A stretch of DNA of 40,083 nt from a virus. Location: IMG/VR virus record IMGVR_UViG_3300037246_001259, positions 1-40,083 of that record; one strand, given 5' to 3'. The notes beneath the pieces are model-generated. The model saw nothing but the letters and a program-made list of their open reading frames with translations, was not told where the DNA came from and searched no databases. The position numbers and the translations under genes are program-made. Positions 6,763 through 32,119 of this stretch are shown one piece after another (the stretch's first letter is position 1; every line of letters begins with the position of its first letter).

Positions 6763-6805
6763 AGGCATACCCCCCGGCCATATGTTTATGGTGACGAAAA
6801 TGATT

Positions 6806-6813
6806 GATAAATA
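6806..6813 (+). promoter_or_regulatory. Late-type promoter box GATAAATA upstream of gp25
   Basis: GATAAATA lies 50 bases before the gp25 start, in the 101-base divergent gap between the sigma-factor gene and gp25. It matches 7 of 8 positions of the T4 late promoter consensus TATAAATA. A TTG at 6804 could extend the gp25 frame upstream, but that would place coding sequence over this box. I see no clear -35 element. Confidence 0.55.
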
Positions 6814-6863
6814 CTTGGTGGTCTGAAGACCTTTTTATATATGTTTCAAAGGAAAACAAGTCA

Positions 6864-12541: not shown

Positions 12542-15500
12542 ATGGCGAAACAACGGAGAGTTTTTAATTCTTATCCTCAGAATCAGCAAACACCGCAGAA
12601 CGATAGAGAGACGTTTGTGGCGGATGATCCCCTATTTGAACCAGAGGAAGCCGGATTCCTCAATGGTTATATCGGTGATTTGAATGATTTGACGGCAGAA
12701 GATTTAGAACGTACCCCACCAGTTGTCGAAATGACTCCCGAGCGGCAGAAATATCAGCTATCGGTTGGTGCTACTTTTATTGACCCAGAATCCCAGATTA
12801 GAATTTCCTCCGCATTTTATACTGACTTGGTACAGAATATCGAGTCCAATGGAGGCATTGTGGATGATCCAAATAGGATTTTTAGTTCTAGATTCTATAC
12901 GTGGTCCCCTCCTGTTGATTTCGACAAGCATATCAACTTCAGTCGCTATCGATGGACCGGAGACGGAACAGCCGATGTAAACGGAGAGTATATCACGAAG
13001 GAGGCTTCTCATAGCAAGACGACCCTTTACGAATTAACCGATTTATCTGCTTCCACACTAGAAAAAAGAGATGTAACCATAGTCAATGGTCTTCCGGCTG
13101 TAGGTCCAGAAGGGACTCTTGTAGAGGATGCTAGTACCGTAGATCGTTCTATGTATCGTTCCGATGGTGCTGCGTGGGTCTTGCTTTTCTTTCGTACCAT
13201 ACCAAATATCACGACCCCAGATCTTGGCCCCAATCCGATGGTGGGAGATTTCTACTATATCACCAGAACTGGACTAGAATTTAATCGCCCGTTGGTGTGG
13301 CTTTACAGAGACGATGCCGATAGATGGTTACCTCAACCAATTGTTGTCGATTTTGCAACCCCGGATAGACCAAGAGAGAACATGGTATGGGAAGATGCGA
13401 GACTGTTTCCAAAGAGGATTCTTAAAATCTTCAGGAACGGAGTGTTTGTGGATTTGGTGTACACCCCAGCAGACGGTCCTCCGGGAGCGGCGGGAACTGA
13501 TGGAGAGTACTTGTACGATACCCGAAACTATGTCGATATAACTGATGGTTGGGTGTCGAATAACTGGTGGAGACATTTTGAAGATCTTTCTCCGGCTGAT
13601 AGAGATGAACGAGATAATCAGGATCAAGCAGTTCGTGCTATTGTAGAATTTTGGAATGGAATTGAGCCAGTAGCTGGAGATGTGCGAGACTTTAGGAGTG
13701 ATTTGCCGATATTTAAGAAGTTCTCATATGATGCCGGTGTGGACGAAATCACTGATACTGGAGAGACCACAACAATTTATCAGTATCAAGTAGGACTTGG
13801 AGAAGATGATTTTGTTTTAGGGTTCCCTATTGTTCTAAATCAAACAGGAGAATCTGTATTTGAACTTACATTAGAAGCGGATACTTCGGCATTTCTAGGG
13901 TATAAATATTTCAAAGATACCAATACTAACCTTACTCATTCTGTATGGCAGAAAGCAGATGAATTCACGATGCAAGAGCAGGATGCAAATGGGTTGTATG
14001 AGATTCCTCTAGGAGTTGAGTCGAACCCGGATCATGGAATATTGGAAGTGTTCTCTCGTTCTAGAATTCTTACACACATGAGTTCGGTGATATCTGCTCA
14101 AGAAACATTTTCTGGGGATTCCCTTGGACTGAATTCGTATAGGTGGACAAAGAAGGATACCACTTTGGGAGCTACTTTGGTAGATGGTGAACAGACTCAG
14201 TTACGAGCTTTAGCCCTTCTCCAGTCCCCAAGAACGGATATGTCAGATGCTATAAGAAAGATGGCAAAGGAATACAATAAGACTCTTTCTAGATTCGTGA
14301 ACAAACTGAACATGTTTTGGGAAGAGGCTCTTTTTAATACTCCAGAAGGTATGCTAACAATTTTGCCTTCCGAAGCAGCAGACGCAGTTTTGACAAGTCT
14401 GTTTGTAGGAAGAACCGAAGATTTTCCGTTCTTTCTATCCGATATGGGAACGTATATAACAACTACAGTAGTTGGTGGGGTTGCCAATCCCGTAGATCCT
14501 AGTAATCCTAGACCCATATTCATAGCTCCTTCCGCCCCCCGTGTGGGTGCATCCCCGTGTTTTGTTCCAGAAGCATTTACCGATATCGATGGAGACAAAC
14601 TAAGAGGGCACGAAGGGACAATACTACCGTCTTTTGGTGATGATCGAGATTTGGTGTGGTTGGATTTGCAGAGTAGATTTTTTGACGTAATTCCGGTTGA
14701 GTATTGTATAGAAACCGCAGGATTTTCGTCCAGATTTTCAGAATCCAATTTTCAACTAGATGACTTTTTTGGTAATTTGGTACCTATAACAAGTATCGAA
14801 CCAGTGGATGATGTGGTTGAGGACTTTAATGCCATTCCTGCTCCTGCTACAGGATTAAGAGTGTTCTCTACGATACAAGGTGTGTTTGCTAATTTTGATG
14901 GCCAAACATGGCTTACCAGACAAGCATCAGTAGATGATGTTTTTGAAAATCTAAGTGATGGCGAATTTTATATATTCAATGGTATAGGAACTTTTGTTAT
15001 CCAACGGTTCAATCGTCCCTTTTCTTTCGATTATACGGATAACGAATTTCGAGTAATTACACGAAGAGATTTCGAGAGATTTATTGTTTTCAGAGAACAA
15101 GACTTTTCTGAAAATACTATTTTCGATATTAACAATCCGTTTACTTGGAACTATCGATCTGCTGGTGTTGAAGGGCATTACAAAGGAATTTACAGAAGAG
15201 TTTACAATACCGCAAGACCACATTCCCATCCATGGGAAGTTATGGGATACAAAGTAGAACCAGATTGGTGGAGAGCCCAATATGTTCCAGATTCTACGGC
15301 TCCAGATGGAACCCCTCGATACGGAAACGCACATTCTATGTGGGTGGATTTTGCTCTTGGTTTTGTTGACAATCCTGTAGCACCATTTCAGAGAGATGAT
15401 CTTATTTTGACTGGACCTATTCCAGTAGATGTTTCTGGAGAACTGTTGGATCCTATTGCATCTGGTGTTGTAATAGAAGACAGCCTCGATAAGCAGCGAA

Positions 15501-18500
15501 TTGATGATTTTTGGATTTATGGTGATGGTGCTCCTGTTGAACAAGACTTTTTGGATTCATCGTTCTTCTCGTTTTCTATAGCGTTGAATGGATACTTGAT
15601 GAAGAACGGATTGTGGTTGGATACTCTTTGGACAGAAGTTTACATCAATATTGGTGATAATGGAGCATGTCCTATTGCAACAGCCCCTCATGTGGTGCAT
15701 AGGGACACTTTGACCAGACCTAGTATTTCCGAAATTCTACTCCATCTAGAAATAGACCAAAACGGAAACAAAACGCAAGAACTTGGCGTCAATGCCTGGG
15801 TTGCTGAGAAAATCAATATCGACGGAGGGGATCCATCTACAGATTTCGGTCAAGTGATTAGGAATACACAGCCTGCTCTCGGATGGAAGACTTCTGGATT
15901 CATAAGCAACGCCAGAACAGACATATTCACTCTATCCAACGAACAAATACCATTCGAAGATGTTCATGTACTACTGTATCAATCTCAACCTATAGAACAG
16001 AAATTCTGTTCTGGTGTGATAATAGCAAGAGAATCCCCAGAAGGATACAGGGTTTTTGGAACAGATCCGTTTGACCCGTTCTTTACAACAGAACGACCAG
16101 CAGTTCCTATTGTTGGCGGACAAGTAGAATTGCGTCAAGAATTCACGGTAGAGTTTATAGACGAAGATGCTAATAATGTTACCGGTGGATCGGTGTTTCC
16201 TGATTCTAAAGTGACTAGAGAATTCCAAGTAACAGAGTTCAATATTCCTAGTAACAAGCTCAATAATGATACTGCAAAATTAGCAGTGTTGGTTAATGGT
16301 CTCAGGATGAAACCACAACATATCACCATAACGAATACAAACTCAGTGATAATTGAGAATTTAGTGGAATTGGAGCCTGGAGACATTGTTTCCGTGAATG
16401 TCCTTACCACGCAATCTTCTGCTAGTACTAGATTGAAGCAATTTTTCATTGATGGTGTTTCGTTCCCTTATTTTTCCGAAGGAACCGGAGAATTTGATAG
16501 AATTGAATACGGACGATTTTTTGCCAGTTCTACAGAAGTGATTAACTTCCTTATTGGTTATGGTAGATTCCTCAAAAAGGACGGATGGATATTTGATAGT
16601 CTTTCGGAAGGAAATGAAGCAAGAGACTGGCTTTTGGGGGCTAGAAGGTTTGCCAAATGGGTCTTGGATGTAGAGAGTCCCTGGAATAGGAACAGGCAAG
16701 TCGATATTTTGGATGAAGGCTTCTTTTTGTACAGCCCGATAGAGAACATCGTCAATTTTTCTTCAGAATTTGGACAAACTTCTAGCGTAGAAAGTATCAT
16801 GAATGGCGCTTTTGGGGTGCTGAATCAACGTTCGGAACCAATTCCCGTTGAAGAGACTTTTGTATCCAGAATAGATGGCCAACTTACCATAGAAAGGGTT
16901 GATCAGACGAATGATGATACAAGAATCTTCGGGAGTCGGGTTAACATAACAGAGAATGAGCATGTAGTCATCTTTTCCAATATTACTAAGTTCAATGACA
17001 TAATTTATGATCCCATTTTGGGACTTTTCCATGAGACGTTGAGAGTGGATACATTGAGAACGTTGAACTGGAAAGGAAGGATCGAGGCTAACGGGTTTTT
17101 GATACAGGGAGGAACATTACTTCCTAACTTCGAAAAACAAGCAAAGGATTTGACTAGATTATATGATAGATTCGATCCTGTTGATGATCCTCTGAAAAGG
17201 AGTCTGGCTAGAAATTTAGTCGGATATTCTCCCCCTAATCCAACAAGATTTCGATCACTACAAGATAGTGAAAAGTTCGATGGGCGAACAACGTTTGATA
17301 ATCTCAACTTCTTAATACCTGTTGGCGCAGACGACAGAACTAGGTTTGATTATTTTCGTGGTATGATTCAGACGAAAGGAACAATTAGACCAATTTTCGC
17401 ATTCAGTCGAGGAACCACTTTAGGAACTGAAAATACGGACATCTTTGAAGAGTGGGCATGGAAGATACAGCAATTTGGCGATCCACGAAGGGATATAATT
17501 CAGTTCAGGGTGGATAAGAATGATTTCGTTGATGAAACCCAAATCGTTGCATTCCAGGAGGTAGATGATCCTTCGGATAGGACAATCTCTGTCGCCGCAT
17601 TCAGCAGAAGTAATCCAGATGCCAATCCGAGATGGATAAGGCCACCAGTACTAGGAAAGAATTTGGTATGCAACGTTAAGTTCCCTACAGATTTGGATAA
17701 TCTTCCAGATGTTGAAAACTACGAATTTCTAACCAAGCTGTTCGATGAAGAAACTGGACTCACCGTGCTTACGCACACGAATTTTGATCCAGAGGTTGGA
17801 AAAGTTGATAGTCTTGGTGATTGTGTACTCGATTTGGAACAAGAGATAGATCCTGCTAGGTATAATACTGGTCCCGATGCTGTGTTCTCTGATGAATTGT
17901 GTTGGGCGGAAAAGCAAGTAGGTACGTACTGGTGGAACACCGCACGTCGAAAATATGTGGATTACAGAAGTAGGATTTCCAGTGGTCCCTTAGCACCTAA
18001 TAGTGAATATGAAGATGCTTCAAGATTTTGGGGAGATCTTCTATTCTTTAAGACGATTATTACTAGGGTTGATGAAATTGTTACCATTACGACTCTTGAT
18101 TCGTTCGGGTCTGGTGCAATAGTTCCGCACGGAATTCCTATTGGAGAAACTGTACCTATCAATATATTTGGTGCAGAACAAGAAAATTACAATACTTTGC
18201 AGCAATTAGTAACTGCAACTACGACTACTCAGCTAGAATATGAAATCGATTCTCAGCCTGCTAGCCCTGCTACAGGCGATCCGCAGATTCAAGTTGGGTT
18301 TATCGATATATTGGAATGGGTAGAATCTCCCGTAGCTCCTGCTGATTGGGAAGAGTTCATTTCGAATTTGGAAGGAGAGGACGCACCAACAGGTGCTGTT
18401 TTCAATGAAGACGATCCTTCTTATACTGTAATTACCACAACTGGTCCTACTGCACTTTCGAAAACGAGTTATTTTTTCTGGATTGTTAACAATGAAGGAA

Positions 18501-21500
18501 CAAACTCGAAAAAGAGTCTTACAGCAGACCAAGTTTCTAACAGGATTGCTGATCCTACTGCTCAAGGAATTTCCTGGTTCGCCATCGTAGACGATAATCA
18601 TATGATCATTTTTACTGATGGTGAGAAAGTAGAGAATGGGTACGCTATTGAGGTAATAACTGATCAACGGGAGCTTGAAACGCATGTCGCATGGCAGTTG
18701 GTCTCGGAGAAGGACAACTTCATTTCTGTTCCGCAACCAATCGTTGACAAACTTATCGATTCTATGTCCCAGATTGATCAGCAGGGTAGTGTTGTTCCGT
18801 CTCCTACTCTTTCGGAATCAGAGAAGTTCGGTTCTTGTTTCTTCCCCCCTCAAACGGTTTTCCGAGATATTGATTCGGCGGTTAGGGTCTATATCGAAGC
18901 GATAAATCTTGTCTTTAGAAGAAAGAACTTGTCGCTAAGTGATTCCCCGTTTCTTGACATTTTCGATCTATCTGATGAATTGAGCGATTCTAATCCTACA
19001 GGGTATTGGCAAAGAACAGCGTTCATAGAGGATGAATTTGCCAACAAGGTAGTATTCGATACTGTGCCTACTATAGCAGATAGAGATTTTAGAGCATTAG
19101 CGGGATTCTATGTAGAAGGAGATTTAGTAAAGGTCAATGAGTCTGGTGAGACCGATCCGTGGACAGGATTAGAAACTCCAGCTACGTATGTACTTTTGGA
19201 TGAATCTACATTAGCTTTTGGGTTAATTGGAATCGATAGTGATACTGTTTCTATCAATACCAACATAACTCTTGATACAACAAACTTCAGAAGGGTCTAT
19301 TTTGACACGTATGACGAGTTTGAAAAGATAGAACAAAACAATATTGTGTTCTCTTTAATTCACGAAATGAATGTCCAGAGCATAAATCAGGATTGGATGA
19401 TCAAGACTTCATATATCAATGGTCATTTCAGGGTCTCTACGAATCAATCCCCGTTTGTACGACCAAATGAAGTTCAAGCGATCATTGATAATATACAAGA
19501 GGTTAAGCCGTTCAGGACGAAACTGAGAGGACACAATCTCACATTGGATATTGGTGAAGTTGAACCATTTACGACTCAGCTTATTGAATTCCCAGACAAG
19601 AAAATCAGTCTATTTTTTGACAGGCTTTCATGTTCCGCCTTTGAGGATGGTGGATGGGAGTCGTTTCCATGGGATTCACAAGAAGTTCCGGGTATTGGTT
19701 GGGACAGGCCGTTTTGGGAATTTGAAGATCTTGGACGACAAGAATTTTACACAGTAGCTAGTTTTGTTGGTGATGGTGTAACAACACAATATGTAGCCGA
19801 TGCTTTCTTCACTCCTATTCAGTATAATACCAGAGTTGTTGTATCGATTAATGGTGACGTAGTAGATCTTGATGAAGTTGGTGTGAACTTTACGATAGAA
19901 GAAACGACTACTCAAATTATTGTCACGTTCTTAAATGCAGTTTTTGGTCCCACCACAACTATTGAAATCCAACAAGCACAGGGATTCTTTGATGGCCCAG
20001 AACCAACACTTGGACCAGATTTAGCGAACACTATATTCCAACCTGCTCCCGGCACGTATGAACATGCTATTGCAAGGATTTTGGATATTGGAGTAGAACA
20101 ACCGTTTGATGTGAGTACAGTAATGGCTGGCTGTGATATCGATTCTTTGGGTGGAGCACCCGAAGAACGACTAAACAATGAAGTGTGTGATAGTGTTAAC
20201 ATCTGTGTTATAACTGACCACACGCCTGCATATGCAGGGTGGGACGCACAACCATGGGATTCCACTCCTTGGGATTCTACTCCAGCCGACATTGGTAGAA
20301 GGATTTTCATCATTAGTGCAGGGAAGCAAGAAATATGTCCTCCTGGTGTTCAGTTTTTCAACACCAGTGACGATGTTCGTATTGGTGGCGAGTTACTTGT
20401 TTTCAATGACATTAATGGAGACGTTATTGGGACTCCATCTGCTAGTCAGACTATTCTTCGATATATGTCACCTCGTGAAGCCATTATTAGGGCAGGATTC
20501 ACGGGTTCCGCAGCATCAAGTGACGTGGCTCCAACCGCAGATACTGTATATGAGATTAGAGTCAACGGAGTTACTATCGGAGAGGTAGAATTTTTGGCTG
20601 CTTCTAATGTTGGAAATTACACTGATGTTATTGTTGGGGATCATGCTATACAGTTTGGCGACGTTTTTGAAATAGTGGCTCCTGGAGGCCCAGATGCAAC
20701 ACATGCGAACATTTCATTCACTATTCCGTTTTGGAATCTTGGGCTTACAACATTTTCCACCTCGGTTATCGGCACTTCTCCGTCTTTTGTTATTGATCAT
20801 ATCGAAGTGCAGACAAACAGTGTGGGCGCATTTGTCATTCAAACGGAAGGAATTGAATATGAGCAAGGTGCGCTACCGCATATTCTAGAATTCAATACGC
20901 CGGATATTATTTGCATTACTGCCGATGGAATCACGACAAGTTATGATACACAATCTCCAACATGCATTTTGAATGTATGGGTGGAGGGAACATTAATGGC
21001 TGAAGGAGTTGATTTCAATTTTGCTGACCCACCCAACAATACGATAATCAACTTCGTTCAGCCGCCTCCTACTGTTGTGGATAATTTTAATACTCCTAGT
21101 TCCTCAAGTACTATTGGTGATGGAGTGACCACTGATTTTGAAATGAGTCTTGATCGTAGTGCGTTAACAGAAGAAAATGTGTTTGTCTTTCTTAACGGGG
21201 ACTTGCAAGACATTTCGACCTATATCTCTGGCTCCCCCGTTGATGATGTTACCTTTACGTCAGGATCTAAGATTGTATCTATTACAGATATTGGAGGTGA
21301 TGTAGCTAGAGTGGTAACAACGTTTCCACACGGAGTGATTGTAACAGATTCTGTTGAGATACGTGGAGTTAATACTGGAACCCCAGGACAAGATGAATTC
21401 GCGGGAACAAAGATCGTAACTGCTGTTCCTAGCGCAACCGAGTTTGAGTATGCAATCGTCAGCGCGATAGCAGATCCAGCCGCTGTTCCGTTTGTTTCTA

Positions 21501-23500
21501 TGTATTTTGATTTCACAGCTATAGATCCGTCTCCTGCTATTGGAACAAAGATCTTGCTGCATGGGTATGGAAATTCTCCTGACAGATCAAAAGATTCGAT
21601 TTTTGATGTTCAGACCTTTACTGCCGTCGCCTTACAGACAGTGTTTAATACTGGACAAGTGATCGGAGATGGCAATAGAACCTTTGTGTTTGTTGACGGA
21701 AGGTATCAAGTGTTAACCACGGATTATATTGTAGCCGCAGGAGTGGTGACTTTTGGTGCTCCGTTGGTCGGTGGAGAGATTGTGGAGATCAGAATTCTTA
21801 CTCCTTTGGTGGCCGATATAGAGCACATTCAATTTACTACTAGTGGAACATCGACCGATGTTATTCCAGGGCTGGATGATGCAGACAACACCCTCTTTTA
21901 TATGGTGTTCCGTGGGGATTCTTTACAGGATGGCTATACGACATTAGGAATCCCAGATTTCTCCATTATTAACACCAATCCAGATTCGATTGCTTGGACA
22001 GATTTGTCTGAATCAACATTGTTTGATTACACCGCAATTACTGGAGCCTCCTTGCCGACTGGTGCAGTTCCAGCAGCATGGTTTGATGTATCTTCAACAA
22101 CGGCAACTTACAGATTCTGGTTTGATGATGGCTCTACCGTTGTTCCACCGGCTGGTGGCAACGTTTTGACTGCTATCGCGTTTATCGGAACAGAGACAAA
22201 CCAAGGAATTTCTGATTTAGTAGAAGCTGCATTTATAGCTGCTGATGCGGACTTTGCTGTTGCTTCAAATAATACTCCGCTTATCGATTTGACATTGGCA
22301 ACCGTTGGGTCTGTTCCTGATTCTATAGACGGATTTGTTCCTACCGGAGCCATTATTGCTACAATTGTTGATGGTGATGGAACATTTGCTGAAGCCTCGA
22401 AATTCAACTTCACTGACATTACCGGTGCAACTCTACCAACCGGTGTAGTTCCAGCGGCACTGATTGAGGTGTCATCTACTACAGACACTTATAGATTTTG
22501 GTTTGATGATGGTTCTACTATTGCGCCAACTTTCACATTTCAGGTTTTGGTAGCAGTTCCATTCACTGGTGCAGATACAGACCAAGATATCTCTGATGCT
22601 GTCGTAACTGCATTAATAGGCGCAGATGCCGATTTTATAGGTGCTTCTAATGGCACACCTGTTGTTGATCTAACTTTGGTAACGACAGGTTCTGTTCCAG
22701 ATGCAGTTGATGGTGCTGTTTCTACAGGAGCCGCTATTACAGTTCTTGTGCAAGGCGTTGATACACCAGGAATCGGAGAAAATATCTCTGTTAGATATAT
22801 AAGAGAAGCGTTGGTAAGTCAGACTATATTTGTGATAGTGTTCCCTGAAGTCGATGATGAAATTAAGGCAGAACCAGTTCCGTATGTTCAACCTAATGAC
22901 GTGGTTAGATTCAGATACAATGGATGGCCAGTAGGACCAGAGGGAGGATTCCGGTATAACGGTGCTATTCCTTCGCCTGCTACAACATATGACACTATCG
23001 GGGGGATAATATCGTTTGATGTTCTTCCCGACCCGTTATCCCTGTTTGTTCTTGAATTCACAACCGAAAGGGTTGGTGATGTTCCTAGATCCATTCTTGT
23101 CAGAATGCCAATAATCGTGAATGACATTTTGCCAGATCATACGGTATATGACGAACCAACAGGATTCAACACATTTAGGACAGTTGGGACAATTATCGTT
23201 AATACCACATCGGAAAGGTATTTTGAGTGGGATGGTTCGGTCTGGAACGATACAGGTGGAGTAAATCCTGGAGATCAATTTTTCGTCACGAGAAAACAGC
23301 AAATATGGGAATTCACCGGGGTATTCACGAAGCTATTTGATGTGGGAGACAGCTTCACAATGCCTCCGATTATAGAATTGGAAAAATTCGGATTGGGAAT
23401 CACTTATGGAATGTATTCTCTCGGACAATTACCGAATGCAGAAGTGAGCTACCCATCTTCGTATCAAATCATGCAGCATCCGGGAGACTGCCCCGCATAA
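12542..23500 (+). CDS. Giant virion structural protein, 3652 aa, in the gp7 wedge position
   Basis: I chose the ATG at 12542 because an in-frame TTG at 12503 would overlap the promoter box; the ribosome site is weak. The N-terminal 150 residues (SSAFYTDLVQNIESNGGIVD, then VDFDKHINFSRYRWTG) resemble the start of large gp7-like wedge proteins of T4-related phages. The place right after gp6 is that of gp7 in T4. The protein is over three times T4 gp7 (1032 aa). Visible modules: a Trp-rich turn segment at about 2370-2389 (GGWESFPWDS) and a second at 2567-2582 (WDAQPWDSTPWDSTP); G-D-G-x-T-T beta repeats near 2405, 2853 and 3023; a T-P-G-Q-D module at about 2908-2992; and a tandem duplicated module at 3150-3407. 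No enzyme motif is seen. It probably combines a wedge role with appendage domains; the gp7 assignment is inference. Confidence 0.7.
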   Translation: MAKQRRVFNSYPQNQQTPQNDRETFVADDPLFEPEEAGFLNGYIGDLNDLTAEDLERTPPVVEMTPERQKYQLSVGATFIDPESQIRISSAFYTDLVQNIESNGGIVDDPNRIFSSRFYTWSPPVDFDKHINFSRYRWTGDGTADVNGEYITKEASHSKTTLYELTDLSASTLEKRDVTIVNGLPAVGPEGTLVEDASTVDRSMYRSDGAAWVLLFFRTIPNITTPDLGPNPMVGDFYYITRTGLEFNRPLVWLYRDDADRWLPQPIVVDFATPDRPRENMVWEDARLFPKRILKIFRNGVFVDLVYTPADGPPGAAGTDGEYLYDTRNYVDITDGWVSNNWWRHFEDLSPADRDERDNQDQAVRAIVEFWNGIEPVAGDVRDFRSDLPIFKKFSYDAGVDEITDTGETTTIYQYQVGLGEDDFVLGFPIVLNQTGESVFELTLEADTSAFLGYKYFKDTNTNLTHSVWQKADEFTMQEQDANGLYEIPLGVESNPDHGILEVFSRSRILTHMSSVISAQETFSGDSLGLNSYRWTKKDTTLGATLVDGEQTQLRALALLQSPRTDMSDAIRKMAKEYNKTLSRFVNKLNMFWEEALFNTPEGMLTILPSEAADAVLTSLFVGRTEDFPFFLSDMGTYITTTVVGGVANPVDPSNPRPIFIAPSAPRVGASPCFVPEAFTDIDGDKLRGHEGTILPSFGDDRDLVWLDLQSRFFDVIPVEYCIETAGFSSRFSESNFQLDDFFGNLVPITSIEPVDDVVEDFNAIPAPATGLRVFSTIQGVFANFDGQTWLTRQASVDDVFENLSDGEFYIFNGIGTFVIQRFNRPFSFDYTDNEFRVITRRDFERFIVFREQDFSENTIFDINNPFTWNYRSAGVEGHYKGIYRRVYNTARPHSHPWEVMGYKVEPDWWRAQYVPDSTAPDGTPRYGNAHSMWVDFALGFVDNPVAPFQRDDLILTGPIPVDVSGELLDPIASGVVIEDSLDKQRIDDFWIYGDGAPVEQDFLDSSFFSFSIALNGYLMKNGLWLDTLWTEVYINIGDNGACPIATAPHVVHRDTLTRPSISEILLHLEIDQNGNKTQELGVNAWVAEKINIDGGDPSTDFGQVIRNTQPALGWKTSGFISNARTDIFTLSNEQIPFEDVHVLLYQSQPIEQKFCSGVIIARESPEGYRVFGTDPFDPFFTTERPAVPIVGGQVELRQEFTVEFIDEDANNVTGGSVFPDSKVTREFQVTEFNIPSNKLNNDTAKLAVLVNGLRMKPQHITITNTNSVIIENLVELEPGDIVSVNVLTTQSSASTRLKQFFIDGVSFPYFSEGTGEFDRIEYGRFFASSTEVINFLIGYGRFLKKDGWIFDSLSEGNEARDWLLGARRFAKWVLDVESPWNRNRQVDILDEGFFLYSPIENIVNFSSEFGQTSSVESIMNGAFGVLNQRSEPIPVEETFVSRIDGQLTIERVDQTNDDTRIFGSRVNITENEHVVIFSNITKFNDIIYDPILGLFHETLRVDTLRTLNWKGRIEANGFLIQGGTLLPNFEKQAKDLTRLYDRFDPVDDPLKRSLARNLVGYSPPNPTRFRSLQDSEKFDGRTTFDNLNFLIPVGADDRTRFDYFRGMIQTKGTIRPIFAFSRGTTLGTENTDIFEEWAWKIQQFGDPRRDIIQFRVDKNDFVDETQIVAFQEVDDPSDRTISVAAFSRSNPDANPRWIRPPVLGKNLVCNVKFPTDLDNLPDVENYEFLTKLFDEETGLTVLTHTNFDPEVGKVDSLGDCVLDLEQEIDPARYNTGPDAVFSDELCWAEKQVGTYWWNTARRKYVDYRSRISSGPLAPNSEYEDASRFWGDLLFFKTIITRVDEIVTITTLDSFGSGAIVPHGIPIGETVPINIFGAEQENYNTLQQLVTATTTTQLEYEIDSQPASPATGDPQIQVGFIDILEWVESPVAPADWEEFISNLEGEDAPTGAVFNEDDPSYTVITTTGPTALSKTSYFFWIVNNEGTNSKKSLTADQVSNRIADPTAQGISWFAIVDDNHMIIFTDGEKVENGYAIEVITDQRELETHVAWQLVSEKDNFISVPQPIVDKLIDSMSQIDQQGSVVPSPTLSESEKFGSCFFPPQTVFRDIDSAVRVYIEAINLVFRRKNLSLSDSPFLDIFDLSDELSDSNPTGYWQRTAFIEDEFANKVVFDTVPTIADRDFRALAGFYVEGDLVKVNESGETDPWTGLETPATYVLLDESTLAFGLIGIDSDTVSINTNITLDTTNFRRVYFDTYDEFEKIEQNNIVFSLIHEMNVQSINQDWMIKTSYINGHFRVSTNQSPFVRPNEVQAIIDNIQEVKPFRTKLRGHNLTLDIGEVEPFTTQLIEFPDKKISLFFDRLSCSAFEDGGWESFPWDSQEVPGIGWDRPFWEFEDLGRQEFYTVASFVGDGVTTQYVADAFFTPIQYNTRVVVSINGDVVDLDEVGVNFTIEETTTQIIVTFLNAVFGPTTTIEIQQAQGFFDGPEPTLGPDLANTIFQPAPGTYEHAIARILDIGVEQPFDVSTVMAGCDIDSLGGAPEERLNNEVCDSVNICVITDHTPAYAGWDAQPWDSTPWDSTPADIGRRIFIISAGKQEICPPGVQFFNTSDDVRIGGELLVFNDINGDVIGTPSASQTILRYMSPREAIIRAGFTGSAASSDVAPTADTVYEIRVNGVTIGEVEFLAASNVGNYTDVIVGDHAIQFGDVFEIVAPGGPDATHANISFTIPFWNLGLTTFSTSVIGTSPSFVIDHIEVQTNSVGAFVIQTEGIEYEQGALPHILEFNTPDIICITADGITTSYDTQSPTCILNVWVEGTLMAEGVDFNFADPPNNTIINFVQPPPTVVDNFNTPSSSSTIGDGVTTDFEMSLDRSALTEENVFVFLNGDLQDISTYISGSPVDDVTFTSGSKIVSITDIGGDVARVVTTFPHGVIVTDSVEIRGVNTGTPGQDEFAGTKIVTAVPSATEFEYAIVSAIADPAAVPFVSMYFDFTAIDPSPAIGTKILLHGYGNSPDRSKDSIFDVQTFTAVALQTVFNTGQVIGDGNRTFVFVDGRYQVLTTDYIVAAGVVTFGAPLVGGEIVEIRILTPLVADIEHIQFTTSGTSTDVIPGLDDADNTLFYMVFRGDSLQDGYTTLGIPDFSIINTNPDSIAWTDLSESTLFDYTAITGASLPTGAVPAAWFDVSSTTATYRFWFDDGSTVVPPAGGNVLTAIAFIGTETNQGISDLVEAAFIAADADFAVASNNTPLIDLTLATVGSVPDSIDGFVPTGAIIATIVDGDGTFAEASKFNFTDITGATLPTGVVPAALIEVSSTTDTYRFWFDDGSTIAPTFTFQVLVAVPFTGADTDQDISDAVVTALIGADADFIGASNGTPVVDLTLVTTGSVPDAVDGAVSTGAAITVLVQGVDTPGIGENISVRYIREALVSQTIFVIVFPEVDDEIKAEPVPYVQPNDVVRFRYNGWPVGPEGGFRYNGAIPSPATTYDTIGGIISFDVLPDPLSLFVLEFTTERVGDVPRSILVRMPIIVNDILPDHTVYDEPTGFNTFRTVGTIIVNTTSERYFEWDGSVWNDTGGVNPGDQFFVTRKQQIWEFTGVFTKLFDVGDSFTMPPIIELEKFGLGITYGMYSLGQLPNAEVSYPSSYQIMQHPGDCPA
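21265..21515 (+). repeat. TPGQD beta module, copy 1 (giant gene)
   Basis: Encodes KIVSITDIGGDVARVVTTFP ... GVNTGTPGQDEFAG ... ATEFEYAIVSAIAD. It is closely related in protein sequence to 25675-25925 in the fibre gene. A diverged relative, including IVTITTLDSFGSGAIVPHGI, lies at about 18050-18300 in the same giant gene. The conserved core is S-I-T-D-x-G followed by G-x-x-T-x-T-P-G-Q-D-x-F-A-G and E-F-E-Y-A-I-V-S-A. Confidence 0.75.
21991..22763 (+). repeat. Tandem duplicated ~125-residue module in the giant gene
   Basis: Two consecutive copies (about 21991-22380 and 22392-22763). Both carry G-A-S/T-L-P-T-G-x-V-P-A-A, S-S-T-T-x-T-Y-R-F-W-F-D-D-G-S-T, then F-x-G-x-x-T-x-Q-x-I-S-D and S-V-P-D-x-x-D-G. 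The DNA of the two copies has diverged, so the duplication is not recent. A third copy lies in the 27148-28548 gene. Confidence 0.8.
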
Positions 23501-23533
23501 TGAGTAAATATGAATGGATAAGAGAGACAAGAG

Positions 23534-24142
23534 ATGAATGATTTATCTGATACTTTCGTAACTAGAATTCAGGGACACTTGAAGATTAATCAATATGTTG
23601 ACCACGAATCTATGATGGATGGCGACATAGAGAGGGTTTGGGTCGATAAGAGGAATGCAATCCACAAGGAGAATGCATCAATTCTTATCGCACGGGCTAT
23701 ATCAGACCGAGAATTTGGTTCAATACATACTATGCACTTTGGAACTGGAGGGGCCACAATCGACCCTATTGGAAACATAGTGTTTGCGACTCCGAATACG
23801 AGCGGAGCGGCTGATTTGAATACTCCGGTCTATTTCGAGGTTGTAAATGACAACAATGGTGCTCCCGAGGGAAACCAGATGGCTGTCAGACATATCAACG
23901 GAACATTGTTTTCTGATGTTGAGATTCGTTGTGTAATAGACAAGAACGAGCCTTTCGGACAAGCAGCATTTGATAATGTCGGAACAAAGAATATCAATAC
24001 TTCAAACTTTGTTTTTGACGAAATCGGTTTGAAAACGGAAGACGAACTTTTAGTAACTCATGTGGTTTTTTCGCCAGTAGAGAAATCAGCAAACAGGATA
24101 ATTGAAGTTGTCTATACCTTACGAGTCTCCATTTGTGACTAA
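23534..24142 (+). CDS. Conserved phage tail/baseplate structural protein, 202 aa
   Basis: Probably a virion protein; the exact role is unknown. The motifs WVDKRNAIHKENASILIARA (about residues 34-53) and MHFGTGGATIDPIGNIVFAT (about 65-84) are of a type I recognise in structural proteins next to baseplate genes of marine and T4-like phages. The C-terminal half is beta-rich (EVVYTLRVSICD). It follows the giant gene by 33 bases. The ribosome site AAGAGAGACAAGAG is weak and purine-rich. No enzyme motif, signal peptide or membrane segment is seen. It may occupy the gp8-like slot, but I see no specific sequence match to gp8. Confidence 0.6.
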   Translation: MNDLSDTFVTRIQGHLKINQYVDHESMMDGDIERVWVDKRNAIHKENASILIARAISDREFGSIHTMHFGTGGATIDPIGNIVFATPNTSGAADLNTPVYFEVVNDNNGAPEGNQMAVRHINGTLFSDVEIRCVIDKNEPFGQAAFDNVGTKNINTSNFVFDEIGLKTEDELLVTHVVFSPVEKSANRIIEVVYTLRVSICD

Positions 24143-24155
24143 TAGGGTGGACAGT

Positions 24156-24163
24156 AATAAATA
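24156..24163 (+). promoter_or_regulatory. Late-type promoter box AATAAATA upstream of the fibre genes
   Basis: TAATAAATACT at 24155-24165 is the third ATAAATA box placed just upstream of a structural gene. It lies 22-29 bases before the ATG at 24185, with AGGAG (24174-24178) in between. The short leader fits a late-type start about 10-12 bases downstream of the box. Confidence 0.5.
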
Positions 24164-24184
24164 CTGAGATAACAGGAGAGTAAG

Positions 24185-24859
24185 ATGGCAGGCCAATATA
24201 CAGTACTCAATAGTCGTGGAACAGCGGTAGCGACGATTAACCCTAATCAAACAACGGGTAACAATTTTTCTGTTGAGTTGTTGGGGCAAGCGATTACGCC
24301 CTATAAGCAGATTATTTCTGATACGCAATACCATTTGCTCGAAAACTTTGCTAACTCGCTGGAGCCTACAAATGCGGTAGAGGGACAGTTTTTTTACAAG
24401 GTCTTCACTGATGGAGTGGATGGCCAACCTCATTTCTATAATGGCACCAAATTCCTACCAATGATGGGTGCTGGAACTTCATATGCTGGGAAGTTTGAGA
24501 TGCTTCCTACTGCGACGGCAGTTGATTTTGCAACTGTGGGAATAACAGCAATTTTTACTGCTCCTAACAACGGAACAACGTTCCATCCGACTGGTTTGAT
24601 ATTAATTCCGAATACGTTGACAGCGGTCGTGAGCCCGCCGAACCCACAGTTCAATTTGTTTGTAGGAGCTTCAGAAGATGTATTCTCTACGACAACAGTT
24701 ATTGGGCCAGACGTTGATAAATCTGCATTCTTCTCTATTGGTGGCAACAGACGATTTGTTAAGAACGCAGAAACTCTCAATCTTGAGATAACGTCCGCTG
24801 GTTCTGCGGGAGTCATGACGTATGATGCCGTCTTGCTTGGTTTCAATGACGTAGTATAA
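24185..24859 (+). CDS. Tail-fibre/appendage structural protein, 224 aa
   Basis: AGGAG lies 6 bases before the ATG. Residues about 33-72 (YKQIISDTQYHLLENFANSL, then NAVEGQFFYK ... HFYNGTKF) match a recurring phage tail-fibre segment: a helix ending L-L-E-N-F-A followed by N-x-x-E-G-Q-x-x-Y, normally continuing to a D/N-G-T-x-W/F turn. The rest (about 95-224) is Thr/Val-rich beta structure ending MTYDAVLLGFNDVV. It is first in a run of four appendage genes behind an ATAAATA box, so it may attach fibres to the baseplate. The receptor and the exact position in the virion are unknown. Confidence 0.65.
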   Translation: MAGQYTVLNSRGTAVATINPNQTTGNNFSVELLGQAITPYKQIISDTQYHLLENFANSLEPTNAVEGQFFYKVFTDGVDGQPHFYNGTKFLPMMGAGTSYAGKFEMLPTATAVDFATVGITAIFTAPNNGTTFHPTGLILIPNTLTAVVSPPNPQFNLFVGASEDVFSTTTVIGPDVDKSAFFSIGGNRRFVKNAETLNLEITSAGSAGVMTYDAVLLGFNDVV

Positions 24860-24874
24860 TAGGAATAAAAAAGA

Positions 24875-26485
24875 ATGGCTATTAAAATGATACCCTACGG
24901 TCTTTTGGAGTCTGGTGAACTTAATGTTCTCATAGACGAAGTTACTGGTGTTCCAGAGGCTGCGGTGGTAGAAGTTTTTCAGGCACTTCCTGCCGTTAGT
25001 GTTCCTGAAAATTTTGATGGTCGTTTAATATTTGAGACAGATTCTCAGATATTGTATGTATTCACAAACAAAACAGTATCGCCTCCAGGAGCATGGCTTC
25101 CTCTTGAAGGCATTCCGGCCACAATTGGTGTTTGCACCGATTTGTCAGATCCTGCTCAGCCTAAACCGCCTTCGTCACCGATTCCTGCCCCAGGAGAACT
25201 ATTTTATTGTACCGATACTCAAGTAGTATTTGTTTGGGATGGAGTTCAATGGGTTCCAGTTGGTGGAAGGTTTGCTGCTCAATATTTTGAAACTACGCAT
25301 ACTGGAGATGGCCTGACAACATTGTTTTCTTTGGGTGTCGGTGTTTCTTCTTCTCCTGGCAGTACGAATGAGGTGGAAGTATTTTATGATGGAGTACGTC
25401 AGGTTGGTGGAGTAGATTACCAATTGGTGGGACTGAATATAGATACCACTATTGGTGTTGCTCCAGGGTTTGGTGTAGTTATTTTTATACGAACTACTGT
25501 TTCACAAGCGGTGGTCCAGAATGTTCAGACAATTGATTCTACATTCCCTAGTGTTGCCGGTGGATTGACCACGTTTGATGCTGGAGCAGCCGGATTAGAT
25601 TCTGCTGGTATTTTTGTATACAAGGACGGATTGCTTCTTGCTGGTGGTGGAGTTGATTATGTTCATGTAGCCGCTGATACATCCATACTTTCTATTACAG
25701 ACCTTGGTACAAATACTGCCAGAGCGGTTACAACAGTAGCCCATAATGCTGCTCCTGGTGATATTGTTGATATTCAAGGTATTGATACTTCTACTCCCGG
25801 TCAGGACGCATTTGCTGGGTCCAAGACTATAACGGCTACTCCTGGTGTAACTGAATTTGAATATGCTATTGTTAGTGCCACAGCGGATGCATTTGCAATA
25901 GGAGATCCAGTAGTATTCTGGACACCATCATTTGTTAATGATGATATCGTTTTAAATGTCCCAACAGCGGGAACCGAAGATATTGTTATTCGTTCTATCA
26001 AGAGCGCAGTTACTGCTCCAGCTTCTGGAGAGGCGAATACTGCATCTAATCTTGGAGCAGGATTCGGAGTGTTTTCGACAAAATCTGGCGTGGATCTTAG
26101 ATTCAAATCTCTTACGGAAGGCCCAGGCGTTACTATTACTGATTTAGGTACCGAGCTTCAGGTTACAGCAGATACTGGAGTTCTTTTTGAAGCTAGACAG
26201 GGAATCAATACATCCACCCATACTTTGGGTTCTGATGAAAGTTATATTGGTGTTAGAAATACCTCCTTCTCGGTTACCATTGATGTTTCTTCTGTTCCTG
26301 GCGGAACCTCTGGTTCTGGACGAAGAGTTACAATAAAGGACGAATCTGGTGGGGCTACTATCAATAACATAAATATTGTACATGCGGCGAGAACGTTTGA
26401 TGGAGCAGCATCGCCTCTAGTGATTAATACAAATTTCGGTTCCGTGACCATTGTGTTCGATGGCACCAACTGGTTCCTAGTATGA
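24875..26485 (+). CDS. Mosaic tail-fibre protein, 536 aa
   Basis: AGGA lies 9 bases before the ATG. The N-terminus has two short D-G/W turns (PGAWLPLEG, VVFVWDGVQWVPVGG) typical of fibre adaptors. Residues about 136-212 are a G-D-G-x-T-T beta repeat (HTGDGLTTLF ... VEVFYDGVRQ), and 216-268 a diverged second one (IFVYKDGLLLAGGGVDYV). Residues about 268-350 hold the TPGQD module shared with the giant gene. The C-terminal 100 residues (GRRVTIKDESGGATINNINI ... FGSVTIVFDGTNWFLV) are a recognisable phage fibre-tip type domain ending in G-x-N-W-F. It is likely a trimeric appendage exposed to the host surface. Confidence 0.68.
   Translation: MAIKMIPYGLLESGELNVLIDEVTGVPEAAVVEVFQALPAVSVPENFDGRLIFETDSQILYVFTNKTVSPPGAWLPLEGIPATIGVCTDLSDPAQPKPPSSPIPAPGELFYCTDTQVVFVWDGVQWVPVGGRFAAQYFETTHTGDGLTTLFSLGVGVSSSPGSTNEVEVFYDGVRQVGGVDYQLVGLNIDTTIGVAPGFGVVIFIRTTVSQAVVQNVQTIDSTFPSVAGGLTTFDAGAAGLDSAGIFVYKDGLLLAGGGVDYVHVAADTSILSITDLGTNTARAVTTVAHNAAPGDIVDIQGIDTSTPGQDAFAGSKTITATPGVTEFEYAIVSATADAFAIGDPVVFWTPSFVNDDIVLNVPTAGTEDIVIRSIKSAVTAPASGEANTASNLGAGFGVFSTKSGVDLRFKSLTEGPGVTITDLGTELQVTADTGVLFEARQGINTSTHTLGSDESYIGVRNTSFSVTIDVSSVPGGTSGSGRRVTIKDESGGATINNINIVHAARTFDGAASPLVINTNFGSVTIVFDGTNWFLV
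25675..25925 (+). repeat. TPGQD beta module, copy 2 (fibre gene)
   Basis: Encodes SILSITDLGTNTARAVTTVA ... GIDTSTPGQDAFAG ... VTEFEYAIVSATAD. This is the same module as 21265-21515 in the giant gene, with clear residue-by-residue correspondence over about 80 residues. The two genes belong to different parts of the virion, so the module has moved or been copied between them. Confidence 0.75.
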
Positions 26486-26495
26486 GGACATAATA

Positions 26496-27146
26496 ATGAC
26501 AACTAAGGCAACAAGAGACGTTATTAATCTGGGATCATCAACTGACCGTCCCATTATAGACGGAGTTAATATCGACGGAGATAACGGACCCAATTTTACA
26601 ATAGATGGAACTACTATAGGAGCCGGTTTGCCCGGTTCCGCTACTTTTTCCATTGCTACCATCGCGGCTGGTGGGACCCTGACATTCGGTGCAGGTTCCA
26701 GCATGATCATAACAGATACTCCGCTTACGGTCGTTGGCACCTTAAATGCCAATTATGCTGATTTGGCTGAATATTACGAATCTGACGAACAGTACGAACC
26801 AGGAACAGTGGTTAGTATTAATGTGAATGGAGATTCTGAAATTACAGCATCTAAGGGCGATTTAGATAATGATGTTCTTGGTGTTGTTTCAACAAATCCT
26901 GCCTATGTCTTGAATGCTGGGAGCGACGGACTATATTTGCCAATAGCACAGATAGGAAGAGTTCCTTGCTTGGTCCACGGACCAGTGAAGAAAGGAGATC
27001 GAATCGTTCCTTGCTGTGTGGGACATGCTCAAGCGGTCAGTAATAGCGTATCTTCCCGAGATAAGATGATTATCGGAAGAGCACTAGAATCTAATGATGC
27101 CCAAGGCGTGAAGTTGGTTGAAATCACAATAAACACTTTAAAGTAA
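26496..27146 (+). CDS. Tail-fibre protein with GVVSTNPAY-type C-terminal domain
   Basis: 216 aa. The N-terminal half is Gly/Thr-rich with repeated short strands (NLGSSTDRPIIDGVNIDGDN). From about residue 85, YADLAEYYESDEQYEPGTVV is followed by DVLGVVSTNPAYVLN and IGRVPCLVHGPVKKGDRIVP. This domain is frequent at the C-terminus of marine and T4-like phage fibre proteins and resembles peptidase G2-type fibre-tip or chaperone domains. I cannot confirm autoproteolysis. GAGGA precedes the ATG by about 8 bases, and the next gene begins 1 base after the stop. It is likely a fibre tip or a short fibre. Confidence 0.68.
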   Translation: MTTKATRDVINLGSSTDRPIIDGVNIDGDNGPNFTIDGTTIGAGLPGSATFSIATIAAGGTLTFGAGSSMIITDTPLTVVGTLNANYADLAEYYESDEQYEPGTVVSINVNGDSEITASKGDLDNDVLGVVSTNPAYVLNAGSDGLYLPIAQIGRVPCLVHGPVKKGDRIVPCCVGHAQAVSNSVSSRDKMIIGRALESNDAQGVKLVEITINTLK

Positions 27147-27147
27147 T

Positions 27148-28548
27148 ATGGCATATAATGTAGGTGGCTTAATAGAAGCGTCGGATTATAACGGCTTTCA
27201 GTCGGACACCGATGATGTATTCGGGATTGGGTTCTCAGACTTCGGACCCGCTCCCCCCCGTAAGTTCTTTGGCTATGGCCAGACCATGGTTCCAGTAGAA
27301 GCCGCTCCGTTAGTCTCTGTGGCTGTCGATCAGATTATTTCTGCTGCTGAGTGGAGAGTTCTTCTAGAAGCTGTTCAGATTTGCGCAGACCATCAAGGAT
27401 TAGTAGTTGGCCTTCCCCTTTTATCCGAGATTGTAGGTTCTCCAACTTTTACTAAAATTCAATCCTACTCAGGTGTTCCTGAAAGTATGTCTCTTGATTG
27501 GACCGGAATCCCAGGTGCGAGCTTACCGACCGGGGCGACTCCGGGTGCATGGTTTGATATTACATCTACAACCACTACGTATCGTTGCTGGTTTTTTGAT
27601 ACTTCTACAACACCCCCGGCTGTTACTACAGAAACTTTGATTGCCATTCCATTCACTGGTGCTGAAACTGGCCAAGCGATTTCTGATCTTGTTGTTACAG
27701 CAATAGTTACAACAACGGGTGATGCTGATTTTGCTGGATTTGATAATGCTGGTGGTACTACTCGGCTTGTCACTGGAACATTAGTTAAAACAGGTGATGT
27801 AACCGATCCTGTTGATGGTGCCGAACCAACAGGTGCTATTATTTCAAGTACAACCCAGGGTTCTGGTCCAGTGAAAACTGGAAGTTTTCCTACTTCTGTT
27901 GCAGCTATTCGGGTGGATCCTACTGCTGTTGGTAGTGGTTCAACTAGCTTGATTTCCCCGGCACTAACAGATACTAGGGGTGCTGCTTGGTCTAATCAAC
28001 TTACCCACATATTTCAACAGTCTTTTACTAGTGGAGACGCAGCCAGACAGTGGTTTAATTCTGGTGGACAAATAAGAATTCGTGCAACTAGAACTGGTGG
28101 AGCCGGAACTACACAAGATCTTGCGTGGGATTTTGTGTTGGCTGCTATGGGAACTGTTATTTTTGATTTTGATGATACCACCAATACTGGAGCAACCTCA
28201 CTACCAACCACTCTCGGTTACTATGATATGACAACTTCTTTTCAGACAATCTTTTCGATAACCAATGCTCAGGCGGGTGGAGGTGGAGCTTATTCCGCCA
28301 ATAGAATTATTATTCAGGCGAGAAGCGTTCTAGGCCCTACGGGGCCTGATGATAAGGGATTACAGCTTGAGTTTAGAATTGATTATCAGGATATCCATGT
28401 TAGTGGCGGATTCTTTGATCAAGTTAGTGGAACATTCAGGTCTTTTGTAGATTTGAGAGAAGGAGATGTTTTCCTTACTGATCCAGATCCATCAACGTTT
28501 CGTACAGGATTACCGGTAACTACCACCTCGATAGCAACTGGTACTTGA
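27148..28548 (+). CDS. Virion structural/appendage protein, 466 aa
   Basis: The N-terminal 95 residues follow a phage structural pattern: VGGLIEASDYNGFQSDTDDV, GYGQTMVPVE, then IISAAEWRVLLEAVQICADHQG. This Y-G-Q ... I-x-A-x-E-W-x-x-L ... H-Q-G arrangement is one I associate with tail-end structural proteins of large myophages. Residues about 117-241 are a copy of the module that is duplicated in the giant gene. The remainder is Gly/Thr-rich beta structure (RTGGAGTTQDLAWDFVLAAM ... LQLEFRIDYQDIHVSGG). The ribosome site is weak; the gene is probably translated with its upstream neighbour. It is the last structural gene before the modification block. Confidence 0.65.
   Translation: MAYNVGGLIEASDYNGFQSDTDDVFGIGFSDFGPAPPRKFFGYGQTMVPVEAAPLVSVAVDQIISAAEWRVLLEAVQICADHQGLVVGLPLLSEIVGSPTFTKIQSYSGVPESMSLDWTGIPGASLPTGATPGAWFDITSTTTTYRCWFFDTSTTPPAVTTETLIAIPFTGAETGQAISDLVVTAIVTTTGDADFAGFDNAGGTTRLVTGTLVKTGDVTDPVDGAEPTGAIISSTTQGSGPVKTGSFPTSVAAIRVDPTAVGSGSTSLISPALTDTRGAAWSNQLTHIFQQSFTSGDAARQWFNSGGQIRIRATRTGGAGTTQDLAWDFVLAAMGTVIFDFDDTTNTGATSLPTTLGYYDMTTSFQTIFSITNAQAGGGGAYSANRIIIQARSVLGPTGPDDKGLQLEFRIDYQDIHVSGGFFDQVSGTFRSFVDLREGDVFLTDPDPSTFRTGLPVTTTSIATGT
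27496..27870 (+). repeat. Third copy of the GASLPTGA module (466-aa gene)
   Basis: Encodes WTGIPGASLPTGATPGAWFD, then TSTTTTYRCWF, FTGAETGQAISDLVVTAI and DPVDGAEPTGAIIS. It corresponds to the tandem copies at 21991-22763 in the giant gene, with a Cys replacing Phe in the Y-R-F-W segment and a small insertion near the G-D-A-D-F part. Confidence 0.75.
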
Positions 28549-30749: not shown

Positions 30750-31266
30750 GTTCACCAACCTGAATAACACCGAAGCAAGGATAACCAGGATTACACCCGC
30801 GACTCGATTCGAAGGGAATTTTGTGGAAATTTCTGATGAACTTGGCAGGAAGTTTATGGAGGGAAGGGAAATTTCCTCTGATTGGAAACTAGTTTGGGAT
30901 GCTGCTTCTGAAAGAATGATAATGAAGAGAACTGGTGAAGAGACCTTCAATTCTCTCGTGTCAGCATTTATGGAGGTGGGAGAACAAGAAAATCCTGATG
31001 TGATTATAAAAGCTGTACTTCCGTCTCCAAGTGGTGGGCCTGTATTGTTTTCGGTATCTATGTATGAGCCACCAGAGGATCCTAATATGCCTCTGTATTT
31101 TTTCGTTACGAAAAAAGGGGACCCGAATGTACTTTATGCTGAGTTTATGTCACACTACTATGAAGTAGAGAACAAATTCCATTGGCATGATCCGAGAAAC
31201 GAGTTTAGTGTGTTCACAAGGGGCACCAATCTAGTCTGCTCATTGGAAATAGATAATGATGAATAG
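30733..31266 (+). CDS. Unrecognised protein in the modification operon, 177 aa
   Basis: Not recognised. It begins MRVYYEFTNLNNTEARITRI and has three visible parts: a short beta N-terminus, an acidic helical stretch (EETFNSLVSAFMEVGEQENP), then a beta-rich C-terminal half (PVLFSVSMYEPPEDPNMPLY, FHWHDPRNEFSVFTRGTNLV). The last part could be a small cupin-like or beta-sandwich domain, but no metal motif is convincing. GGAG precedes the ATG. It overlaps both neighbours (17 and 11 bases), so it is certainly co-transcribed with the transferase genes. Confidence 0.6.
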   Translation: MRVYYEFTNLNNTEARITRITPATRFEGNFVEISDELGRKFMEGREISSDWKLVWDAASERMIMKRTGEETFNSLVSAFMEVGEQENPDVIIKAVLPSPSGGPVLFSVSMYEPPEDPNMPLYFFVTKKGDPNVLYAEFMSHYYEVENKFHWHDPRNEFSVFTRGTNLVCSLEIDNDE

Positions 31267-32119
31267 ATTATCGGATTACGATGTGTTCCTTCTCAGTTAT
31301 GACGAACCCAATGCGAACGAGAATTATGCCGATCTGAAGGCCAAGTTCCCATTGGCAAAAAGGGTGCATGGAGTGAAGGGATTTGACAATGCTCACAAGG
31401 AGTGTGCTAAGCAATCCAGTACGAGGCGGTTTATAACCATTGATGGAGACAGCCGAATCAATGATGGGTTTCTTGATCAAACCATACCAGAAGAGTTGGA
31501 TAAGAGTCGAAAGGTATTATCGTGGGATGCACGAAATGTGGTAAACGGTTTGGTGTATGGTAATGGGGGTCCGAAGTGTTGGACCAAAGAATTTGCGCTA
31601 GAGATGAAAACACATGAACATGCTGAGACAGATTCTGAGAGGGTGGACTTTTGCTATGATGACGACTATAAACATATTCGTGGGGAGTGGACAACAACAT
31701 ATCCAAACGGAAGTAGAGAACAAGCATATAGAGCAGGGTTTAGAGAAGGAGTAAAAATGGCCCTCCATCAGGGGGTTAAAGTTAAACCTATAGAGAGGCC
31801 GAGTGTAATACAGTCTTCCAACAACATGAAGTTGAGTGTTTGGTGTTCTGTTGGCGCAGATGTGGAAAATGGATTTTGGTGTATGTTTGGTGCTAGGACT
31901 GGAGCATATTTGACAACAACGGACGATTTTGATTTGAGTAGTATATCGGATTTCGATTCTATGGAACTGAGATTCATGGAAGCAAATTTGTTAGAAGGAG
32001 AAATGGAAGAAACCTTTGTAGGATTGGGTAAATTACTTGAAATCAGATTGGACATCTCTGTAGCAGATCTGGATTCCAGAGGGTCACGATTGTTCAAGAA
32101 AATGATGGGGAGTAAGTGA
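31256..32119 (+). CDS. Glycosyltransferase-like protein, paralogue A, 287 aa
   Basis: FLLSYDEPNANENYADLKAK (from residue 11) and RVHGVKGFDNAHKECA are followed by RFITIDGDSRINDGFL with D63-G-D65. That is the order of a nucleotide-sugar-binding strand, conserved helix and DxD of GT-A enzymes. VVNGLVYGNGGPKCW follows. All these blocks recur in the 34485-35189 protein, so the two are paralogues. This copy has about 85 extra C-terminal residues (from about 200), acidic and beta/alpha mixed. It starts at overlapping ATGATG (31256-31261). The stop overlaps the next start (TGATG). The activity is inferred from fold signatures. Confidence 0.6.
   Translation: MMNRLSDYDVFLLSYDEPNANENYADLKAKFPLAKRVHGVKGFDNAHKECAKQSSTRRFITIDGDSRINDGFLDQTIPEELDKSRKVLSWDARNVVNGLVYGNGGPKCWTKEFALEMKTHEHAETDSERVDFCYDDDYKHIRGEWTTTYPNGSREQAYRAGFREGVKMALHQGVKVKPIERPSVIQSSNNMKLSVWCSVGADVENGFWCMFGARTGAYLTTTDDFDLSSISDFDSMELRFMEANLLEGEMEETFVGLGKLLEIRLDISVADLDSRGSRLFKKMMGSK

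Follow-up and report, generated by a model that had tools for sequence, protein, structure and literature searches.

In a 40,083-base virus record (IMGVR_UViG_3300037246_001259; the whole stretch analysed is called the window), whose gene set is that of a large contractile-tailed phage, a giant virion protein shares two modules with two genes downstream of it, named here after their start positions as the 24875 and 27148 proteins. The first, T, is a 'TPGQD' module of about 67-80 amino acids (aa) and the second, S, a 'GASLPTG' module of about 120 aa. The T in the C-terminal part of the giant and the T of the 24875 protein are sister copies that occupy the same loop of homologous carrier domains, at a giant site that is empty in relatives. 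We consider it probable that loops of these carriers accept domains, that T was copied from the fibre gene into the giant and that the 27148 protein received S as a loop insertion. The labels 'fibre' and 'baseplate-associated' are putative, taken from gene order, position and weak domain matches.

Modules and carriers shared with two downstream proteins

An earlier note on this DNA had proposed that the same modules are reused in the giant and two downstream genes, and self-BLAST of the window proteins bears this out. The giant matched the 24875 protein at E 6e-26 (giant residues 2806-2995, numbered from TTG 12503, versus 143-342) and the 27148 protein at E 2e-32 and 7e-30. The best scores, 106 and 125 bits, respectively, lay far above the maxima of 43.9 and 38.9 bits from 200 block-shuffles each, and of the remaining window proteins, the one that scored highest with the giant, a baseplate wedge protein (7235-11614) with stretches weakly similar to it (BLAST E 2e-5), reached 39.7 bits. 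An iterated profile found three copies of T in the window (two in the giant, one in the 24875 protein) and three of S (two in the giant, one in the 27148 protein), and the module coordinates given earlier were right to within about 40 nucleotides (Table 1). Both modules are rich in the residues T, G, A and V, as would be expected if low-complexity beta repeats had come to look alike by chance or convergence, but the margin over the shuffles, together with a shared 5-residue insertion and the tree described below, refutes this explanation.

The proteins had also been taken to be otherwise different, which did not hold: the giant and the 24875 protein share a carrier domain around T. The 24875 protein has two such carriers, of which the second, once T is removed, matched both the first (hhalign 97.6%, E 4e-12) and the giant carrier (hhalign 94.6%, E 7e-8), while T itself matched neither of these; the wedge protein matched the carriers less well (hhalign 18-64%). 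In both proteins, the carrier strand ahead of T is the one marked 'DY' or 'TY' and, given the carrier-to-carrier matches, T therefore occupies one and the same loop in homologous domains. In fold, the carrier matched N-terminal domains of T7-type fibres and podophage fibre adaptors with Z scores from 8.7 (Carin 1) to 7.8 (7ey9, 8dsp) over 65-70 residues, a level that may mean a common arrangement only.

The 24875 protein begins with a weak Mtd_N-like match (residues 100-124), followed by the two carriers, T and a gp9/gp10/TSP4-like C-terminal domain (438-536). In its structural model, the predicted local distance difference test (pLDDT) score was 65 overall and about 70-92 over T (blocks of ten). 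The C-terminal domain of the model matched T4 gp10/gp9 and CBA120 TSP4 with Z 9.1-12.2, where we take 5iv5_AC to be gp10. The T region of the model matched the beta-barrel of K1F/NF endosialidase (residues 267-353; Z 9.1, 76 residues, 2.3 Å) and the E1 FCCH barrel (PF16190) of Uba6 (residues 267-352; Z 9.4, 75 residues, 2.3 Å). As modelled, T has the barrel fold of the endosialidase and E1-FCCH domains.

Sequence searches returned marginal matches to the same families. Neither PF16190 nor the endosialidase family PF12195 reached its Pfam cut-off: each had a match in one of 12 T sequences (best E 0.013 and 0.026, respectively) and none in the window copies, and the phi92 endosialidase matched T at E 0.06. 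Among PHROGs, the T sequences matched virion structural and tail fibre proteins, and there were weak matches of T to the major tail proteins of Microbacterium phages; matches to GAPDH and LacI were set aside as chance. Overall, neither Pfam nor NCBIfam offered a credible family for the giant or for either module. Since the K1F barrel is described as having a site for sialic acid with an effect on host discrimination (PMC12632334), T may, by analogy, contact sugars.

Filled and empty sites

Module content was compared with relatives of two kinds. The closer relatives are metagenomic, namely G005 (360 kilobases, kb) and G007 (204 kb), whose wedge protein is 55% identical to that of the window, plus G002, G003 and G004. 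A scan with the conserved 202-aa neighbour of the giant as anchor added metagenomic loci L024-L103 (80 kept of 286 confirmed), which include the near-duplicates L024/L025, L027/L028, L032/L033 and L034/L038. Modules do not hold identical positions across these relatives, so the finding that the earlier note had named as refuting its proposal, the same positions in all related phages, did not arise.

The C-terminal giant T was seen in the window only, among the loci examined, and was absent from each of the six relatives in which this region is preserved. The alignment with G002 and G004 shows an intact, uninterrupted carrier at this site, and excising the 81 aa of T from the window giant raised the best BLAST score for every one of the six: from 108 to 178 bits for G002, 114 to 178 for G004, 95 to 167 for L026, 69 to 120 for L029, 79 to 115 for L031 and 81 to 129 for L024. 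The other giant copy of T, at about residue 1848, is older and diverged, and relatives show whole or half matches there. In the giant of L024/L025, a repeated-domain array of about 870 aa lies within this internal T (L024 open reading frame (ORF) residues about 1065-1934). A single-sequence scan of viral_contigs for T gave no match.

Among L024-L038, the 15 closest loci, 13 have a 24875-type protein that carries T. In the tree, the C-terminal giant T and the fibre T of the window form a clade (support 100/98) separate from the group of internal giant copies (90/95). These two copies are 52% identical, with the next best copy at about 34%, and they alone among the T copies examined have the 5-residue insertion. 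Because of this clade, the common insertion and the empty giant site in relatives, we conclude that T was copied within the window lineage; module duplication or exchange between the giant and genes downstream of it, as proposed earlier, is supported. The fibre T is, on average, 34% identical to its orthologues (37-40% for the nearest five), which are 40% identical among themselves, and since it is about as distant from them as they are from one another, there is little sign of an outside origin. The simplest reading is that copying ran from fibre to giant, a direction reached by parsimony and not by proof.

That the two window copies are closer to each other than to orthologues would also follow from gene conversion, in which both genes already had T and one copy overwrote the other. 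We regard this as very unlikely: with the giant site empty in relatives, there was probably no older copy to overwrite, and the saturated silent sites described below exclude a recent conversion.

For S, number and place vary in the giant. In G002 and G004, the complete giant carries a single S at the place of the window pair, and that of G003, cut by the contig end, has one too. In G005 and G007, S lies elsewhere, between the equivalents of window residues 1778 and 1788, with further domains of about 350 aa dividing it; in G007 (L015), the divided S spans giant residues 1773-2263, a position at which the window has nothing. The S profile did not find the module in L024-L026, L029, L031 or L034-L038. 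A match of one S copy to Tnp_DNA_bind (E 0.046) was discarded.

In the 27148 family, S was found in the window only: the loci scanned with the S profile contain 162 ORFs assigned by C-terminal similarity, of which 113 are complete and distinct. We could locate a 'W..L...HQ'-like motif in 84 of the 113 but not in the other 29. The spacing from this motif to the C-terminal domain was 19-45 aa in 78 of the 84 and 106-182 aa in the other six, which are the window (with S), L165, L121 and the related L142, L180 and L182. The L165 insert contains a T-like stretch (independent E value 7e-6, four-sequence search), and the inserts of the window, L165, L121 and L142 had no mutual BLAST similarity at E 1. 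With such unlike inserts at one site, the loop after 'HQ' must have taken different inserts several times; the giant is alike in taking inserts, as the L024 repeats inside its internal T illustrate. The family is common in viral metagenome contigs (at least 480 confirmed), and tblastn with P0006 found no match in 50,697 phage records.

That S occurs in several giants and is displaced in others means that gains or losses occur, which leaves room for old duplication followed by differential loss, from an ancestral T in the C-terminal carrier of the giant and an ancestral S in the 27148 protein. This history seems improbable, as several lineages (the six relatives) would each have had to lose T and leave a clean carrier, fibre S would have had to be lost in every other relative examined, and the giant T would fall outside the window fibre T, contrary to the tree.

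Age of the events and rival explanations

At identical residues, third codon positions are equal in 33-48% of cases, that is, silent sites are saturated. The events are therefore old, and recent exchange is ruled out.

The copying of T and insertion of S can be pictured as follows. The giant and the downstream fibre-like proteins probably consist of small carrier domains with loops that take up entire additional domains. The comparison with relatives shows that, in this lineage, a T barrel like that of the 24875 protein entered the homologous giant carrier at the corresponding loop, behind the 'DY' strand. It also shows S in a 27148-protein loop that relatives have empty, and a tandem pair of S in the giant against a single copy in relatives. 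Copying from fibre to giant probably went through rare intragenomic recombination, with the loop position making the inserts tolerable. More speculatively, and by analogy with the sialic-acid-binding barrel of endosialidase tailspikes, the inserted barrels might serve the baseplate and fibres as exposed spacers or as contacts to sugars.

Several points weigh against this account. The direction of T copying depends on parsimony alone. Two of the 15 closest loci, L034 and L038, yielded no T-bearing 24875-type protein, although no search was aimed at their orthologue, and G005, G007 and L034 are silent on the C-terminal T since that region of their giants was lost or never present. In the S tree, a single clade of the three window copies has a p-AU of 0.28, neither shown nor rejected, and the best tree places fibre S beside the S of G002-G004 with weak preference (63/82), so that for fibre S, the tree points to no one donor. 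The model of the giant C-terminal part (pLDDT 48) is too poor for the fold of S. Because silent sites are saturated, the DNA event and its mechanism can no longer be read. Lastly, the largest ORF was similar to another ORF (E 1e-3 or better) in just 4 of 70 loci, including the window, and weakly so in two; this count covers loci whose largest ORF has at least 900 aa, with many ORFs truncated at the locus edge and several loci nearly duplicating one another.

Some of these points bear on the possibility that the two window copies arrived independently from a different phage with this type of T (and S), a shared outside donor. Domain mosaicism between phages is reported to be frequent among tail proteins (PMC10684548), fibre S and giant S are not joined in the S tree, and fibre S is without the 3-residue deletion of the giant S pair, resembling G002-G004 there. 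An outside donor is nonetheless unlikely: the T copies are sisters, with a 5-residue insertion found in no other T of the loci examined, and two donations by one phage, both into equivalent loops, would be the less simple assumption. S was found neither in the 50,697 phage records nor in genome_contigs, collections from which a donor may simply be missing.

Silent-site saturation and the count of 4 in 70 together indicate that sharing is rare and old, with no active diversification system on the evidence here. A common, ongoing process of sharing was dropped on that count, and the earlier suggestion of a recombination route for changing surface-exposed virion parts stays conjectural. A broader 'socket' architecture of these jumbo phages is possible, and we put it forward tentatively: a few fixed loops ('DY' in carriers, 'HQ' in the 27148 family and hairpins within T and S) might repeatedly take domains, with a small pool of barrels circulating between baseplate and fibre genes and multi-layer nesting as in G005/G007 and L024.

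Gene neighbourhood and known systems

The giant matches phrog_10938 'virion structural protein' (E 3e-207) and lies downstream of gp25-like and gp6-like wedge genes and ahead of smaller virion genes. The names gp25 and gp6 are ones we take from T4, the PHROGs label being 'baseplate wedge subunit', and gp7 for the giant is suggested only by gene order, by comparison with T4. A profile of giant residues 1-1700 matched no baseplate protein in the PDB, and the photosystem matches that it gave were at chance level only. The nearest named phages by tblastn with giant residues 1-2499 are PA5oct-like, 121Q/PBECO4-like and RaK2-like jumbo phages (23-27% identity among the matches listed). Megablast of the window DNA against phages gave no match, which indicates no near relative in that collection; locus L008 is 85% identical to the window across part of the wedge gene and ends before the giant.

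Table 1. Features of the window, with the positions given in the earlier note where modules had been placed before
Feature	Position	Strand	Remarks
Hub/lysozyme	3189-5804		
gp25-like baseplate wedge gene	6804-7235		
gp6-like baseplate wedge protein	7235-11614		phrog_10646, E 4e-264
Giant virion protein	12542-23500	+	3652 aa from ATG 12542; ORF open from TTG 12503
Internal T copy in giant, older and diverged	about 18083-18265	+	Also at equivalent place in relatives' giants
Carrier domain part 1, hosting T in giant	21101-21253	+	
T module in giant C-terminal carrier	21254-21496	+	Residues 2905-2985 from the ATG; site empty in 6/6 relatives keeping the region; earlier note 21265-21515
Carrier domain part 2, hosting T in giant	21497-21571	+	
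Carrier-like domain part 1, hosting S pair	21869-22021	+	Assigned by pattern and alignment with G002/G004
S module, tandem copy 1	22022-22378	+	Earlier note 21991-22763 for both copies
S module, tandem copy 2	22403-22762	+	
Carrier-like domain part 2, hosting S pair	22763-22816	+	
Conserved 202-aa neighbour	23534-24142	+	Anchor for fetching 80 related loci
24875 protein, putative fibre/adaptor protein	24875-26485	+	536 aa
First carrier of 24875 protein	25274-25504	+	No insert; matched T7-type fibre/adaptor N-terminal domains in fold
T module nested in second carrier of 24875 protein	25673-25906	+	Earlier note 25675-25925
27148 protein, putative fibre protein	27148-28548	+	466 aa; most relatives about 300-336 aa
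S module in 27148 protein	27493-27864	+	After 'HQ' motif; earlier note 27496-27870

Other genes of the window include an RNA polymerase sigma-factor gene on the minus strand between the hub and wedge genes (5857-6768; phrog_351, E 1e-33) and, between the two putative fibre genes, a protein (26496-27146) with a weak match to the autoproteolytic Peptidase_G2 (E 2e-5, slightly below the Pfam cut-off). Past the virion genes, a downstream block encodes a Nol-like carbamoyltransferase (32959-34485; phrog_1601, E 1e-100) and an aspartyl/asparaginyl beta-hydroxylase-like protein (37038-37865; PF05118, E 4e-8). The genes at 31256-32119 and 34485-35189 are a paralogous pair of unassigned function (33% identical, E 2e-31), and those at 37807, 38456 and 39088 are mutually related.

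Together, these observations provide a clear filled- and empty-site case in which a phage has placed a domain of one virion gene in a second one, and they mark loops that accept inserts. If general, such copying would help to explain the growth of giant tail proteins in jumbo phages and the variability of their C-terminal parts, and would name positions where inserted domains can be expected. Among the titles and abstract openings that searches of open-licence literature listed, none described nesting of this kind by copying between fibre genes and a giant protein of the baseplate region.

Several known systems resemble parts of this arrangement. The endosialidase beta-barrel (PF12195; K1F/NF, phi92) has the same fold as T and is itself a phage tailspike domain, but it belongs to an enzyme, whereas T sits in carrier domains and matches it marginally in sequence. 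The E1 FCCH domain (PF16190) also has this barrel fold, again with a marginal sequence match, and there is no ubiquitin-activating context here. Tail fibre and baseplate proteins are described as sharing and swapping domains across phages (Smug et al. 2023, PMC10684548); that work compares between phages, and its main text contains none of the terms 'intragenomic', 'duplication' or 'within the same genome'. In the Xanthomonas oryzae phages OP1, Xp10 and Xop411, duplications of fibre-gene domains are reported and tied to host-range change (PMC2248197). Those duplications, as reported, lie within one gene, whereas the copying described here is between genes, old and known from sequence alone. 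The closest precedent is Bacillus phage 0305phi8-36, for which a 2007 report describes gp142 and gp209 as sharing a domain (41% identical) that is absent from the BtI1 homologue and reads this as ancient intragenomic transfer (PMC2147016). As in the window, a domain is common to two virion genes of one genome and absent from a relative's homologue, but that case, as reported, involved one relative and one domain, whereas here there are six relatives with an empty site, a supported tree, same-loop nesting in homologous carriers and two modules. Intragenomic domain transfer has thus already been proposed, in 0305phi8-36; the empty sites and the nesting in equivalent loops are new.

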